NCBI RefSeq assembly: GCF_026013565.1
Contig: NZ_JAPDOB010000002.1
Span: 868,001-932,000, forward strand
From: Sphingomonas arvum
Lineage (GTDB): Bacteria > Pseudomonadota > Alphaproteobacteria > Sphingomonadales > Sphingomonadaceae
Direction of reading: 5' to 3'
DNA length: 64,000 nucleotides
The notes below the pieces were generated by a model, which saw only the letters and a program-made list of their open reading frames with translations, was not told the DNA's origin and searched no databases. The position numbers and the translations under genes are program-made. Of this stretch, positions 57,525 through 61,848 are shown piece by piece (positions within the stretch are counted from its first letter, which is position 1; each line of letters starts with the position of its first letter).

Positions 57525-59942
57525 TCAGCCGGCGCTGACGAAGCTGTCGAGCACGCGCTTGCGGCCGGCGTGCTCGAAATCGATCTCCAGCTTGTTGCCC
57601 TCAATGAGCGCAATGGTGCCGTAGCCGAACTTGCCGTGGAACACGCGCTGGCCGAGCGCGAGGTCGCTGCGGCCCTTGTTGCCAAGGCTGATGGCGGAGG
57701 CGCGGACTTCGGACGGACCGCTGCCGTAGGCGCCGGCCGGCCGGGCGCCGCTGGAGCGGTCATCCAGCTGGGCGCGGAAGTCGGAGGCGGCGCGCTGGTA
57801 GCCGGGGCCGCGGGTGGTGGCGCGCTGGGTGCCGCCGTAGGCGAGGTGGGCGAATGGGTCCTCGCGCTCGCTCCACTGGGCGCGCCATAGGGACTCGCCG
57901 CCGGTCATGGTGGTTTCGCTCTCGATATGCTCGGGCGGAAGCTCGGCGATGAAGCGGCTGGGAATGGAGCTGGTCCACTGGCCGTAGATGCGGCGGTTGG
58001 CGGCGTGGAGGATGGTCGCCTCGCGCCGGGCGCGGGTGATGGCGACGTAGGCGAGGCGGCGCTCCTCCTCCAGGCTGGCAAGGCCGCCTTCGTCGATCGC
58101 GCGCTGGGAAGGGAACACGCCTTCTTCCCAGCCGGCGAGGAACACGACCGGGAACTCCAGCCCTTTGGCCGCGTGAATGGTCATGATGGTGACCTTGGGC
58201 TCGCCGCGCGCCGCGTCATTGTCCATCACCAGGCTGACGTGCTCGAGGAAGGCGGAGAGCGTCTCGTACTCCTCCATGGCGCGGGCGAGCTCGGCCAGGT
58301 TCTCGAGCCGGCCCGCGGCCTCGGCCGACTTCTCAGCCTGGAGCGCGGCGGTGTAGCCCGACTCTTCGAGCAGGAGGCGGGCGAGGTCGGCGTGCGGGGC
58401 GGAGCGGCCCTTGGTGAAGGTGGCCGCGTCAAAGGTGCTGCCGGTGGGCTGCAGCGCGGCGTTCTCGGCGTCCGCCAAATTCTGGGCATGCATGGTGCGC
58501 CACCGCCCGAAGTCGCCGACGAAGCGGCCGAGGCTGCGGCGGGCCTGCGGCGTGAGCTCGTCGCTGTCGAGCATCTGGGCGGCGGCGAGCAGCAGGGGCA
58601 GGCCGGCGGCCCGCGCGTGGCGGTGGATAGCGGCGACCGCCTTGTCACCCAGGCCACGCTTGGGCGTGTTGACGATGCGCTCGAAGGCGAGGTCGTCGGC
58701 CGGGCTCTGGACGAGGCGAAGATAGGCGAGGGCGTCGCGGATCTCGGCGCGCTCGTAGAAGCGGAAGCCGCCCACGATCTGGTAGGGCAGGCCGATCGCG
58801 ATGAAGCGTTCCTCGAACTCGCGGGTCTGGAACTGGGCGCGGACAAGGATGGCGACGTCATCGAGGCTGCCGCCGCGGCGCTGCATGGATTCAACGTCGT
58901 CGCCGATGCGACGGGCTTCTTCCGGGCCGTCCCAGACGCCGATCACCCGAACCTTGTCGCCGGCATCGATCTCCGTCCACAGCGTCTTGCCGAGGCGGCC
59001 GCTGTTGTGGGCGATGAGGCCGCTGGCGGCGCCGAGGATGTGGGGGGTGGAACGGTAATTCTGCTCCAGCCGGATGGTGGTGGCGCCGGGGAAGTCGGCC
59101 TCGAAGCGGAGGATGTTGGCGACCTCCGCCCCGCGCCACGAGTAGATCGACTGGTCGTCGTCGCCGACGCAGCAGATGTTGCGGCGCGGCTCGGCCAGCA
59201 GCCGCAGCCAGTCGTACTGGACGGCGTTGGTGTCCTGGTATTCGTCGACCAGGATGTAGCGGAAGCGGTCGCGGTAATGCTCCAGCACGTCAGGGTGGGT
59301 GCGGAACACGGTCAGCATGTGCAGCAGCAGGTCGCCGAAGTCGCAGGCGTTGAGCGCCTTCAGCCGGTCCTGGTACTGCGCATAGAGCTCGCCGCCGCGG
59401 CCGTTGGCGAACGCCTCGCTCTCGCCCGCGTCGATGTCGGCCGGGATCCAGCCCTTGTTCTTCCAGCGGTCGATGCAGGCGGCGAGTTGGCGGGCGGGCC
59501 AGCGTTTCTCGTCGAGGTCGGCGGCGGCGATCAGCTGCTTCAAGAGGCGCAGCTGGTCGTCGGTGTCGAGAATGGTGAAGTTCGACTGCAGCCCGGCCAG
59601 CTCGGCATGGATGCGGAGCATCTTGGCGCCGATCGAGTGGAAGGTGCCGAGCCACGGCATGCCCTCGATCGCACCGTTGCTGATCCGGCTCACGCGCTCC
59701 TTCATCTCGCGCGCCGCCTTGTTGGTGAAGGTGACGGCGAGGATCTGGCTCGGCCAGGCGCGGCGGGTGGCGATAAGGTGGGCAAGCCGGGCGGTCAGCG
59801 CCGCGGTTTTGCCCGTGCCGGCGCCTGCGAGGACGAGGACCGGGCCCTCGGTGGTGAGCACGGCTTCGCGCTGCGGCGGGTTGAGGCCGCTGACGTAAGC
59901 TGGATCAGGCTGGGAGGCGGGCAGGGCGGCAGAGTCGGACAC
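57525..59942 (-). CDS. uvrD: UvrD/PcrA-type 3'-5' DNA helicase
   Basis: About 805 residues of superfamily 1A. Walker A is LAGAGTGKTAALTAR, Walker B ILVDEYQDTNAVQY, motif III VGDDDQSIYSWRGAE and motif V/VI MTIHAAKGLEFPVVFL with VAITRAR. The C-terminal RNAP-interacting Tudor-like end is present (RVFHGKFGYGTIALIEG). GTG 59942 is the likeliest start (MSDSAALP); the frame extends to TTG 60089, but that stretch is not helicase-like. It acts in mismatch and excision repair and in clearing replication blocks. Confidence 0.93.
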   Translation of the reverse strand: MSDSAALPASQPDPAYVSGLNPPQREAVLTTEGPVLVLAGAGTGKTAALTARLAHLIATRRAWPSQILAVTFTNKAAREMKERVSRISNGAIEGMPWLGTFHSIGAKMLRIHAELAGLQSNFTILDTDDQLRLLKQLIAAADLDEKRWPARQLAACIDRWKNKGWIPADIDAGESEAFANGRGGELYAQYQDRLKALNACDFGDLLLHMLTVFRTHPDVLEHYRDRFRYILVDEYQDTNAVQYDWLRLLAEPRRNICCVGDDDQSIYSWRGAEVANILRFEADFPGATTIRLEQNYRSTPHILGAASGLIAHNSGRLGKTLWTEIDAGDKVRVIGVWDGPEEARRIGDDVESMQRRGGSLDDVAILVRAQFQTREFEERFIAIGLPYQIVGGFRFYERAEIRDALAYLRLVQSPADDLAFERIVNTPKRGLGDKAVAAIHRHARAAGLPLLLAAAQMLDSDELTPQARRSLGRFVGDFGRWRTMHAQNLADAENAALQPTGSTFDAATFTKGRSAPHADLARLLLEESGYTAALQAEKSAEAAGRLENLAELARAMEEYETLSAFLEHVSLVMDNDAARGEPKVTIMTIHAAKGLEFPVVFLAGWEEGVFPSQRAIDEGGLASLEEERRLAYVAITRARREATILHAANRRIYGQWTSSIPSRFIAELPPEHIESETTMTGGESLWRAQWSEREDPFAHLAYGGTQRATTRGPGYQRAASDFRAQLDDRSSGARPAGAYGSGPSEVRASAISLGNKGRSDLALGQRVFHGKFGYGTIALIEGNKLEIDFEHAGRKRVLDSFVSAG

Positions 59943-60070
59943 GCCGAACGAGGTAGGCGCGGCGGAACGGAACGGCAACACGGGACGTGGCCGGGCAAGC
60001 GAGCCGTTTATGCGCCATTTCCCCGTTATCCACAGGCTTGGCGTTGGCGAATCCGGTTGGCGCGAATCGG

Positions 60071-60787
60071 AAATCACAGCATCCTGCAAGGGTGATCGGG
60101 GGCAGCGGCCCCGGCCGGAACGGAAGGGCTCCGCAAGGAACCGGACCAGACTGGAAGGGGCTCAAAGCACCGATCTCCGCCGGCGAAGGCGCCGGAGTGG
60201 AATTCGTGAGCAGGACCAGCTTCCCCAGGATGCCGGCACCACTCGCGGAGGATCTCCGGAGAGCGATGTCGGCAAGAGGCGCCGGAAGAGCTGATCTTCC
60301 TCGTCACGCACAGCAGGGCCGGTCTTCGGACCGGGTTGGCAGGGCGCAACGAGCGATCAGTCCAAGAAGGGCCGCGGAACGACGATTGGTGGTCTGGCTT
60401 CGATAAGGAACCAGGCCCGGTCCGAGGGTCCGGACTAGCGAAGGCAGCGGCCGCAAGGACCGCCGGAGCGGCCGGGCAGGAGGACAGCCGAAGCGAAGCC
60501 GGTTCGCCCGCAAGGGTGGATGGGCCACCGGAAAGCTCCCGCAAGGAGGCTGGATGGCGAGCGACGGCAGAACCGGTCGAAGCAGGGCAGTCGCCGAAAG
60601 GCGGCCGGCCGGCGGAACCGGGGAAGGCTTCCGACAAGGGAGCGGCGATCGAAACGGACGCGACGCCTGAGCTGGTGAGCAAGGATCGTGGAAGGCGGGG
60701 GTCCCCAAGATGCCCCGCGAACAAGCGAACACCGGCAGAGCCAAGACTCGGCGCAGTGGGGGCTGGCAGCGATGCCGGCCCCCATTT
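60071..60787 (+). ncRNA. Candidate large structured noncoding RNA (about 700 nt)
   Basis: The gap between uvrD and the thioesterase holds no convincing protein gene: frames are open on both strands only because the DNA is GC-rich, and third-codon bases are not biased to G/C as in neighbours. The + strand is purine-rich and packed with hairpins: 60072-60095, 60098-60111, 60126-60141 (loop GCAA), 60318-60333 (6 bp closed by TTCG), 60447-60463 (GCAA), 60499-60531 containing 60507-60516 (GCAA), 60534-60551 (GCAA), 60592-60603 (GAAA), 60627-60643, 60695-60718 and 60758-60783 (GCGA). GNRA and UUCG loops are stable only when read on this strand. The last stem looks like a terminator. RNase P, tmRNA, SRP and 6S hallmarks were looked for and not found. 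Ends are approximate. Confidence 0.62.
60758..60783 (+). terminator. Terminator-like stem at the end of the candidate RNA
   Basis: An 11-bp stem (GGGGGCTGGCA at 60758-60768 with TGCCGGCCCCC at 60773-60783, one G-T pair) closes a GCGA loop and is followed by ATTTCG. The U-tract is short, but the stem is the strongest in the region and lies about 100 nt before the thioesterase start. Confidence 0.6.
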
Positions 60788-60881
60788 CGCGTGGCTGCCG
60801 TGTTAGCGCGATCCTCGGCCTGCTTTCCGGATCTGACCGGATTGCGCTACGCAGGGCGCTTTGCACGAGGGGAGCTGGACG

Positions 60882-61295
60882 GTGGACCAAGCAGCTGGTC
60901 TCAAGATGGCACTGGACGCTGCCAATCATGCCTCGCCTTTCCACCGGGTGACCGGGTTCGAGGTGGCACAAGCGGGCGAGGGCACAGCGGAAATCCACTT
61001 CGCGAGCGCGCGCGAACTGCTGAACCATGCGGCGGCGCTGCACGCGGGAGTGCAGTGTGCGGCGTTGGACACGGTGTGCGGCTATGCGGCTGCGACGCTG
61101 GCGGGTCCTGTGGTCACCCTGCAGATGACCACCCAGTTCCTCAGCTCGGCCAAGGGCGAGCGATTCATCGCCCGCGGCTCCGTCGTGAAGGCCGGTAAGT
61201 CGCAGTTGTTCGCCGAGGCACAGCTGTTTGCCGTGACCGAAGAGGCGGAGAGACTGGTCGCTACCGCGGCGGCGGTCCTGACCAGGGTCGGCTAG
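60882..61295 (+). CDS. PaaI/YiiD-type hotdog thioesterase
   Basis: A 137-residue hotdog-fold protein. The core contains NHAAALHAGVQCAALDTVCGYAA, corresponding to the HGG/AxxD active-site helix of PaaI-type acyl-CoA thioesterases, and VTLQMTTQFLSSAKGERFIARG. GTG 60882 with GAGGGGAG at 7-nt spacing is chosen over TTG 60861. Substrate unknown. Confidence 0.85.
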   Translation: MDQAAGLKMALDAANHASPFHRVTGFEVAQAGEGTAEIHFASARELLNHAAALHAGVQCAALDTVCGYAAATLAGPVVTLQMTTQFLSSAKGERFIARGSVVKAGKSQLFAEAQLFAVTEEAERLVATAAAVLTRVG

Positions 61296-61357
61296 GCGAG
61301 GAGGGCATTGCCTTCACGACGAAGCAGAGTAGCATCGCCCCTGGGGAGGAATGGGGC

Positions 61358-61453
61358 ATGATCAAGGCTCTGCTTGGCTTGTTGATCCTCACGGGGGTGG
61401 CGGCGACGCTGACCAGCGCGCGGCCGCCGGTTGAGGCGCAGTCGCGCGGGTGA
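61358..61453 (+). CDS. 31-residue membrane microprotein
   Basis: ATG 61358 is preceded by GGGGAGG at 8 nt. It encodes a 31-residue peptide with a single hydrophobic segment (ALLGLLILTGVAATL) and a polar end (RPPVEAQSRG). Its TGA overlaps the GTG of the next gene (GTGA, 61450-61453), so it may be both a product and a translational coupler. Too short for most gene callers; the strong ribosome site is the main evidence. Confidence 0.55.
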   Translation: MIKALLGLLILTGVAATLTSARPPVEAQSRG

Positions 61454-61848
61454 ACCGGCTGTTCGAGCGCGTATCGGGCAAGGTGGCCGCGGCGGCCGGG
61501 CGCCCGTGGGCCTTCATCCTAGCGGTCGCGATCATTGTGGTGTGGGCGCTGTCGGGGCCCGTGTTCGGCTGGTCCGACACGTGGCAGCTGGTGATCAACA
61601 CGGGCACCACCATCGTCACGTTTTTGATGGTGTTCCTGATCCAGAACGCGCAGAACCGGGACGCGAGCGCAATCCAGGCCAAGCTCGATGAGCTGATCCG
61701 CGCCGTGCACACCGCGCGCAACGCCTTCATCGGGATCGAGCATCTGTCCGAGCATGAGCTGATCCAGTTGAAGGAGGCGCTGGAGCGGATGGCCGGGGAC
61801 GAGCAGGCCCACCACCATGCCATTGAGCGGTTGATCGCGCGCCGCTAG
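61450..61848 (+). CDS. Low-affinity iron permease-family small membrane protein
   Basis: A 132-residue protein with two helices (about 20-38 and 48-66) and a long helical cytosolic tail (LDELIRAVHTARNAFIGIEHLSE). It matches the bacterial family called low-affinity iron permease (related to yeast Fet4): WALSGPVFGWSDTWQLVINTGTT and MVFLIQNAQNRD. Iron transport by the bacterial members is not proven. It starts with GTG 61450 inside the stop of the microprotein ORF. Confidence 0.85.
   Translation: MNRLFERVSGKVAAAAGRPWAFILAVAIIVVWALSGPVFGWSDTWQLVINTGTTIVTFLMVFLIQNAQNRDASAIQAKLDELIRAVHTARNAFIGIEHLSEHELIQLKEALERMAGDEQAHHHAIERLIARR

Follow-up and report, generated by a model that had tools for sequence, protein, structure and literature searches.

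The locus and its RNA element

The window analyzed here is a 64,000-nucleotide stretch of Sphingomonas arvum DNA. The gap between uvrD (minus strand, start near 59943) and a 4HBT thioesterase gene (plus strand, 60861) contains a 717-nt stretch at 60071-60787. A low-affinity iron permease family protein (PF04120) is encoded at 61450-61848, downstream of the thioesterase. The element is present as a single copy in its own genome. The first-pass annotation had read the stretch as a possible new large structured noncoding RNA; what it observed is confirmed and its interpretation is supported by the comparisons reported here, in which none of the three outcomes that it had listed as refuting was observed. 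Its limits should be widened, since conservation among relatives points to an element running from the promoter (60008) to 60788 (Table 1). The comparisons also add a putative promoter with a DnaA box and GANTC sites, and they indicate that the uvrD and thioesterase neighbors are incidental to the wider family.

Pfam was used to search six overlapping ORFs of the gap for coding sequence and 0 families were matched, in line with the earlier statement that the gap holds no credible protein gene. Only 68 of 453 gaps between similar relatives have a length divisible by 3, and neither of two close-relative comparisons shows a clear codon rhythm, so no frame looks selected. An unrecognized or decayed protein-coding gene would fit the long open frames on both strands, but such frames are expected at 68% GC, where ORF length carries little information. 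Together with the missing Pfam match, the gap lengths and the unclear codon rhythm leave this explanation with a negligible probability.

Sixty own-genus loci were fetched with their flanks for comparison. A blastn match at E ≤ 0.01 was found in 64 of 71 genomes of the genus, a few of them weak, and the 3' end is conserved most. The element set comprised 59 relatives and the window (n = 60; L094, which lacks the 3' end, was left out), and the elements are 368-731 nt long. They share the ordered blocks GTGATCGG, CCGATCTCC, GGCGCCGGAAGAG, CCAAGAAGGGCCGC, GACGCCTGAGC and GCTCGGCGC, followed by the terminal hairpin. Much of the length difference lies between the fourth and fifth blocks, where the expansion domain measures about 285 nt in the window versus about 60 nt in short relatives. 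The GGCGCCGGAAG portion of the third block recurs in other genera. The comparisons show an element that has a conserved putative promoter of its own, covarying helices in a predicted folded core, an expansion domain of variable size and a hairpin at its end.

Table 1. Positions of the promoter, RNA blocks and predicted helices in the window
Feature	Position	Strand	Remarks
Conserved promoter region	60008..60101	+	R2 match, E 1.1e-16
Perfect DnaA box TTATCCACA	60026..60034	+	Conserved in genus loci
Second GANTC (GAATC), upstream of putative -35	60049..60053	+	GANTC nearby in 18/59 genus loci
CGAATCG, with GANTC at 60064-60068	60063..60069	+	In putative -35/-10 spacer; bottom strand fits YGAKTCG
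Large structured noncoding RNA	60085..60788	+	Ordered conserved blocks in 60 elements; folding z -5.5; 5' end predicted
Conserved 5' block GGTGATCGG	60091..60103	+	GTGATCGGG (required in element extraction) present in all 60 elements having a 3' end
Helix P1, 5' strand	60094..60099	+	Pairs with 60170-60175; pairable in 60/60 elements, nearly invariant
Block CCGATCTCCGCCGG	60170..60183	+	P1 3' strand and start of P2 (60180-60184 with 60268-60272)
Block AGAGGCGCCGGAAGAG	60275..60290	+	Strict pattern matched in 48/60 elements
Helix H3, 5' strand	60290..60296	+	Pairs with 60355-60361
Helix H3, 3' strand	60355..60361	+	Pairs with 60290-60296
Block UCCAAGAAGGGCCGC	60361..60375	+	Pattern in 57/60 elements, also in other genera
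Variable expansion domain	60376..60659	+	GNRA hairpins at 60502-60521 and 60590-60605
Block GCGACGCCUGAGC	60660..60672	+	3' strand of helix from CCG end of block UCCAAGAAGGGCCGC; 5' strand of P5
Helix P5	60667-60671/60747-60751	+	Nearly invariant; one pair with compensatory change
Block CGAACACCGGCA in 3' domain	60726..60737	+	Alignment of 54 sequences
3' block, including the terminator-like hairpin 60755-60786 with GCGA loop	60747..60788	+	Covariation in hairpin

Covariation across the 60 elements was used to evaluate the predicted helices. H3, a long-range helix, has compensatory changes in all seven of its pairs, of which five reach p < 0.05 against 1000 simulations; its final pair is C-A in 7 cells. 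One H3 pair outscores every column pair in all of 100 tree-simulated alignments. The strict all-pairs test is passed by only two column pairs, one in H3 and one in the terminal hairpin, and support for the remaining helices comes from per-pair tests, counts of compensatory changes or differences among genera. Six of the 14 terminal hairpin pairs have compensatory changes, the same number reach p < 0.05, and 97-100% of cells are paired. This hairpin had been described as an 11-bp stem at 60758-60783; the stem is there but is longer, with strands at 60755-60768 and 60773-60786. Across the whole 3' domain, compensatory changes were seen in 10 of 25 predicted pairs, and the terminal hairpin accounts for six of these. 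P2 is 96-100% pairable with a compensatory change in one pair, and none of its pairs reaches p < 0.05 in the per-pair simulation test. P1 and most of P5 give no covariation because they are nearly invariant. The helix joining the CCG end of block four to the start of block five switches in step between genera (CUG/CAG, GUG/CAC, AUGC/GCAU). It forms 4-6 uninterrupted pairs in 7 of 8 distinct other-genus rows and mostly 3-4 pairs in the own genus, with a permutation p of 0.0002 from 28 distinct rows that are mostly own-genus and whose relatedness was not kept. RNAalifold on the full gappy alignment returned a partial structure only. Stems are thus kept among relatives with compensatory changes.

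Hairpin loops and folding energy were compared between strands. The 60 elements contain 333 GNRA/UNCG hairpins on the plus strand and 28 on the minus strand, with 47 expected from shuffles, which bears out the strand preference claimed in the first pass. With uninterrupted stems of at least 3 bp, the window has five GNRA loops and one UUCG loop on the plus strand versus three UNCG and no GNRA loops on the minus strand. Six GNRA loops had been listed, four of them GCAA; the strict scan returned five (three GCAA, one GAAA, one GCGA) and did not recover the fourth GCAA, while the 6-bp stem with a cUUCGg loop was recovered. Stems of at least 4 bp leave three GNRA and one UNCG loop on the plus strand and two UNCG loops on the minus strand, a plus-strand count reached by 1.2% of 500 dinucleotide shuffles. 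The folding z-score is -5.5 on the plus and -2.3 on the minus strand (20 shuffles each), and the element is 60.7% purine, as its description as purine-rich had implied. Covariation, strand asymmetry of the tetraloop hairpins and folding scores together identify the locus as a predicted structured RNA read from the plus strand. GCGCCGG in block three (60279-60285) could also pair with UCGGCGC in the 3' block (60748-60754), a pairing that excludes P5; both segments are conserved, so a conformational switch is possible.

A putative promoter with a DnaA box and a GANTC site

Promoter features were counted in 59 genus loci, the window included (L089 was left out because its upstream sequence is too short). 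The DnaA box is perfect in 50 loci, a near match in eight and absent in one. The genome has five perfect DnaA boxes versus three for a reversed control pattern; because this count is near chance, only the conservation of the box is informative. The box is inverted in four loci of one other genus and therefore fits a DNA-binding site rather than an RNA sequence. In these loci (L139, L141, L146 and L147) the RNA interior is strongly diverged, yet the terminal hairpin is similar. Four loci from two genera (L195-L198; genomes G164, G071, G114 and G193) have two inverted boxes upstream of the same GACTC site.

A GANTC lies in the putative -35/-10 spacer in 51 of the 59 loci, and 50 of these sites fit YGAKTCG on one strand; among flanking GANTC sites 57 of 267 do so. 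Within 60 nt, 55 of 59 promoters have a GANTC versus 225 of 2400 background 60-nt windows. All 51 spacer sites have C or A at their center, which is what a requirement for YGAKTCG on the bottom strand would produce. The site is missing from the spacer in eight of 59 loci, and GcrA control would therefore not be universal. The 17 heptamers recovered from other-genus loci found by R1 (see below) are all CGACTCG or CGACTCA, a set that does not cover L140, L142 and L144. Among 92 distinct promoter sequences the layout is a DnaA box, 26-27 nt, and then CGACTCG or close variants, and the spacing is 26 or 27 nt in 90; because these promoters were chosen by a pattern requiring both sites, the counts made without it matter more. 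The exact CGACTCG promoter pattern matched 23 of 199 family genomes against 10 for its reversed control and misses many true loci, the one in the own genome included. In the class it matched eight of 289 genomes, and none of the matches listed shows the layout of the promoter.

CcrM methylates DNA at GANTC; GcrA and CcrM are present in most alphaproteobacteria and DnaA in all those studied (PMC2877005). YGAKTCG is an extended motif proposed for GcrA-activated promoters in Caulobacter, and the same study did not find the extension in Brevundimonas; it cautions that the motif by itself is a poor indicator of GcrA control, whereas conservation of the motif could serve as an indicator (PMC7987155). 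The RNA promoter resembles GcrA/CcrM-controlled promoters in having a YGAKTCG-form GANTC within the putative core promoter, as placed by the predicted -35 and -10 elements. It also has a conserved box at a fixed distance, as would be expected of a DnaA-regulated promoter. The GcrA/CcrM targets that we drew from that study are protein genes (PMC7987155), whereas the gene downstream here is a large RNA with a DnaA box upstream and putative GcrA control.

The DNA itself could be what matters, as a DnaA-titrating or replication-control site with an incidental transcript. Two further DnaA-box-like repeats do precede the box in many promoters. The covariation, which includes G-U pairs, and the strong strand asymmetry of the tetraloops argue for an RNA instead, and the usual oriC marker hemE (PMC4741004) is about 826 kb away; we consider an incidental transcript highly improbable.

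Distribution and genomic context

Two models were used to follow the family. R1 is a covariance model of the 3' domain trained on 54 of the 60 elements, all from the own genus. R2 is a sequence-only promoter model built from 49 of 59 promoters chosen from the set of 92, other-genus loci included. The models describe neighboring but separate DNA and are not fully independent, because part of the R2 training set came from other-genus loci detected with R1. R1 gave full-length matches in other genera of Sphingomonadaceae, and at E ≤ 0.1 it reached 272 of 397 genomes. A low R1 score (about 33-48 bits) was not sufficient for membership, which required a nearby promoter or a full-length match. R2 at E ≤ 0.01 matched 147 of 397 family genomes, many weakly. 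Among the 150 matches listed for each search, an R1 match follows R2 by 277-733 nt on the same strand at 83 of the promoter matches, in 21 genera with the own genus included. The wrong-side order occurs three times among the matches listed, each time in a genome with tandem copies. Tandem copies about 420-510 nt apart occur in one genus (L136; G282, G236, G319), and the two at L136 each have their own promoter and differ in sequence. Across the 285 other-family genomes of the class sample R2 had no full-length match; of all 289 class genomes, four of which are in the family, 20 matched at E ≤ 0.01, and all these matches except that of the own genome were partial at 27.2 bits or less.

The promoter pattern run over named genomes gave 45 matches on 44 stretches from Sphingomonas, Hephaestia, Sphingosinicella, Polymorphobacter, Sphingomicrobium and less precisely named metagenome bins. 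Recognized RNA blocks follow the promoter at 23 of the 45 matches. Sixteen of the block-less matches were inspected and have the same promoter followed by a purine-rich, hairpin-rich stretch with a diverged interior, and several end in a very similar terminal hairpin. The first 430 nt of 15 of the 22 diverged loci contain 62 GNRA/UNCG hairpins on the plus strand and five on the minus strand; a flank control gave 34 versus 19, a rough comparison since the windows overlap the element in some loci. Judged by these features, the loci with diverged interiors look like distant family members. The same promoter and a hairpin-rich region in which the blocks were not found are present in Hephaestia, S. 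koreensis and other sphingomonads (L149, L154, L160, L163, L174, L185). Five genomes of one genus (G254, G362, G392, G412, G431) have promoter matches at two separate places, which may represent a second, paralogous RNA gene.

The neighboring genes are shared less widely than the element. uvrD is present in 59 of the 60 fetched own-genus loci, the exception lying at a contig end, and in several it is not directly beside the element. It occurs in 28 of the other loci, 27 of them own-genus plus L183, and in no locus placed in another genus within the flanks examined, many of which span only 1.5 kb. The thioesterase is found in two of the 60 relative loci, and the most widely shared downstream gene cluster is present in 13 of 60 genus genomes. 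The uvrD/thioesterase neighborhood was rejected as a functional context on these counts. Comparison of the loci shows that the predicted RNA gene occupies different genomic places in different genera.

A long cis-regulatory 5' leader of the downstream gene, here the thioesterase, would account for the thioesterase ORF starting about 70 nt downstream on the same strand. The scarcity of the thioesterase in relatives, the small size of the largest downstream cluster and the terminator-like hairpin at the end of the RNA speak against a leader, and we assign it a very low probability.

In Sphingomonadaceae the replication origin is predicted to be close to hemE, the gene commonly used to mark oriC (PMC4741004). 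The own genome encodes hemE at C2:101564, where a perfect DnaA box is found at a distance of about 300 bp; the RNA maps to C2:928050. Identity of the locus with oriC was rejected because hemE is this far off and at least 0.67 Mb away in four of four relatives checked. GC skew in 20 samples of 20 kb changes sign many times.

Known RNA classes and the proposed function

Covariance models of all 4227 Rfam 15 families gave 0 matches above the gathering threshold in the whole window, and at E ≤ 10 the region 59500-61500 returned chance-level matches only. The first-pass annotation had looked for the hallmarks of RNase P, tmRNA, SRP and 6S RNA and not found them, and this search of the window agrees: none of the four is found at the locus, with no match to a bacterial SRP family and none to 6S RNA anywhere in the window. 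RNase P, tmRNA and 6S are housekeeping RNAs with a conserved core. Unlike the locus RNA, RNase P (RF00010; C2:1076147, 279 bits) and alpha_tmRNA (RF01849; C2:943759, 186.6 bits) are both encoded elsewhere in the genome with strong scores. A weak 6S candidate (RF00013, a 187-position model) lies at C1:1152483 with 31.4 bits, below the cut-off; such candidates appear at E ≤ 0.001 in 11 of 13 genomes, the own genome included, and four of the 13 pass the cut-off. A literature search, which misses most subscription journals, found no description of such an RNA. As far as found, the RNA family and its cell-cycle type promoter fit no class.

Large structured bacterial RNAs are already known as a general kind. 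OLE, ROOL and GOLLD are large, ornate bacterial RNAs with poorly understood functions, and the locus RNA is like them in its length of hundreds of nucleotides and its elaborate conserved fold (PMC12286853). The locus RNA differs in being chromosomal, distributed across one bacterial family, preceded by a cell-cycle type promoter and followed by a downstream gene that is not conserved; no Rfam model of OLE, ROOL or GOLLD matches the locus.

We propose, with a probability of roughly 0.6, that the locus is an independent gene whose product, a large structured noncoding RNA of about 700 nt here and roughly 300-730 nt in relatives, belongs to an undescribed Sphingomonadaceae family, is timed by replication, acts in trans and most likely serves as a ribonucleoprotein scaffold. 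Sigma-70 polymerase would start near 60085. Transcription would be coupled to chromosome replication by DnaA bound at 60026-60034 and by GcrA at the spacer GANTC methylated by CcrM, with an S-phase pulse as the result, as suggested by known cell-cycle biology. The terminal hairpin would end and protect the transcript, and the conserved purine-rich blocks could provide protein-binding or tertiary contacts. The trans-acting scaffold role has less support than the replication timing. A stronger form of this proposal has the RNA under direct DnaA and GcrA/CcrM control throughout the family, pulsed at each replication round and forming a new ribonucleoprotein or RNA-only cell-cycle particle; it is put forward tentatively, at less than even odds.

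Two live rivals to the scaffold assign the RNA a different activity. The RNA could regulate cell-cycle mRNAs in trans by base-pairing with them, as a larger functional equivalent of CcnA from Caulobacter crescentus. CcnA is likewise an alphaproteobacterial noncoding RNA with links to cell-cycle regulators, its gene carries weak DnaA boxes, and CcnA itself is proposed to act on the ribosome-binding sites of ctrA and gcrA (PMC8959179); the cell-cycle type promoter of the locus RNA fits such a role. CcnA is 182 nt long, is encoded at the origin and is presumably activated by CtrA (PMC8959179), whereas the locus RNA is far longer, has a GANTC/GcrA-type site and is encoded away from oriC and its neighbor hemE. 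Its conserved blocks also read as lying in or between helices, not as one free seed, and a base-pairing role appears unlikely. The second rival is an RNA that acts by itself, as a ribozyme or in an RNA-only assembly of the OLE, ROOL and GOLLD type; the conserved blocks would then form its core. Such an RNA would fit the strong conservation of the internal blocks, the variability of the outer domain and the abundance of GNRA/UNCG loops. To our knowledge Rfam covers the known ribozymes, and the lack of any matching family makes a self-acting RNA quite doubtful.

The RNA would add to a short list, since few large structured bacterial RNAs beyond the housekeeping ones are known. Annotation that relies on Rfam leaves this RNA gene blank because nothing in Rfam 15 matches it. 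The RNA occurs across many genera of one family, cultured species included, and a knock-out could therefore be tried at once. Its frozen core and fast-changing outer domains make it a good subject for work on RNA structure. Its promoter suggests integration of a large RNA into the DnaA-GcrA-CcrM circuit; if this is true, the cell cycle of alphaproteobacteria would have a new component. The RNA may thus connect a so far undescribed RNA machine with the bacterial cell cycle.
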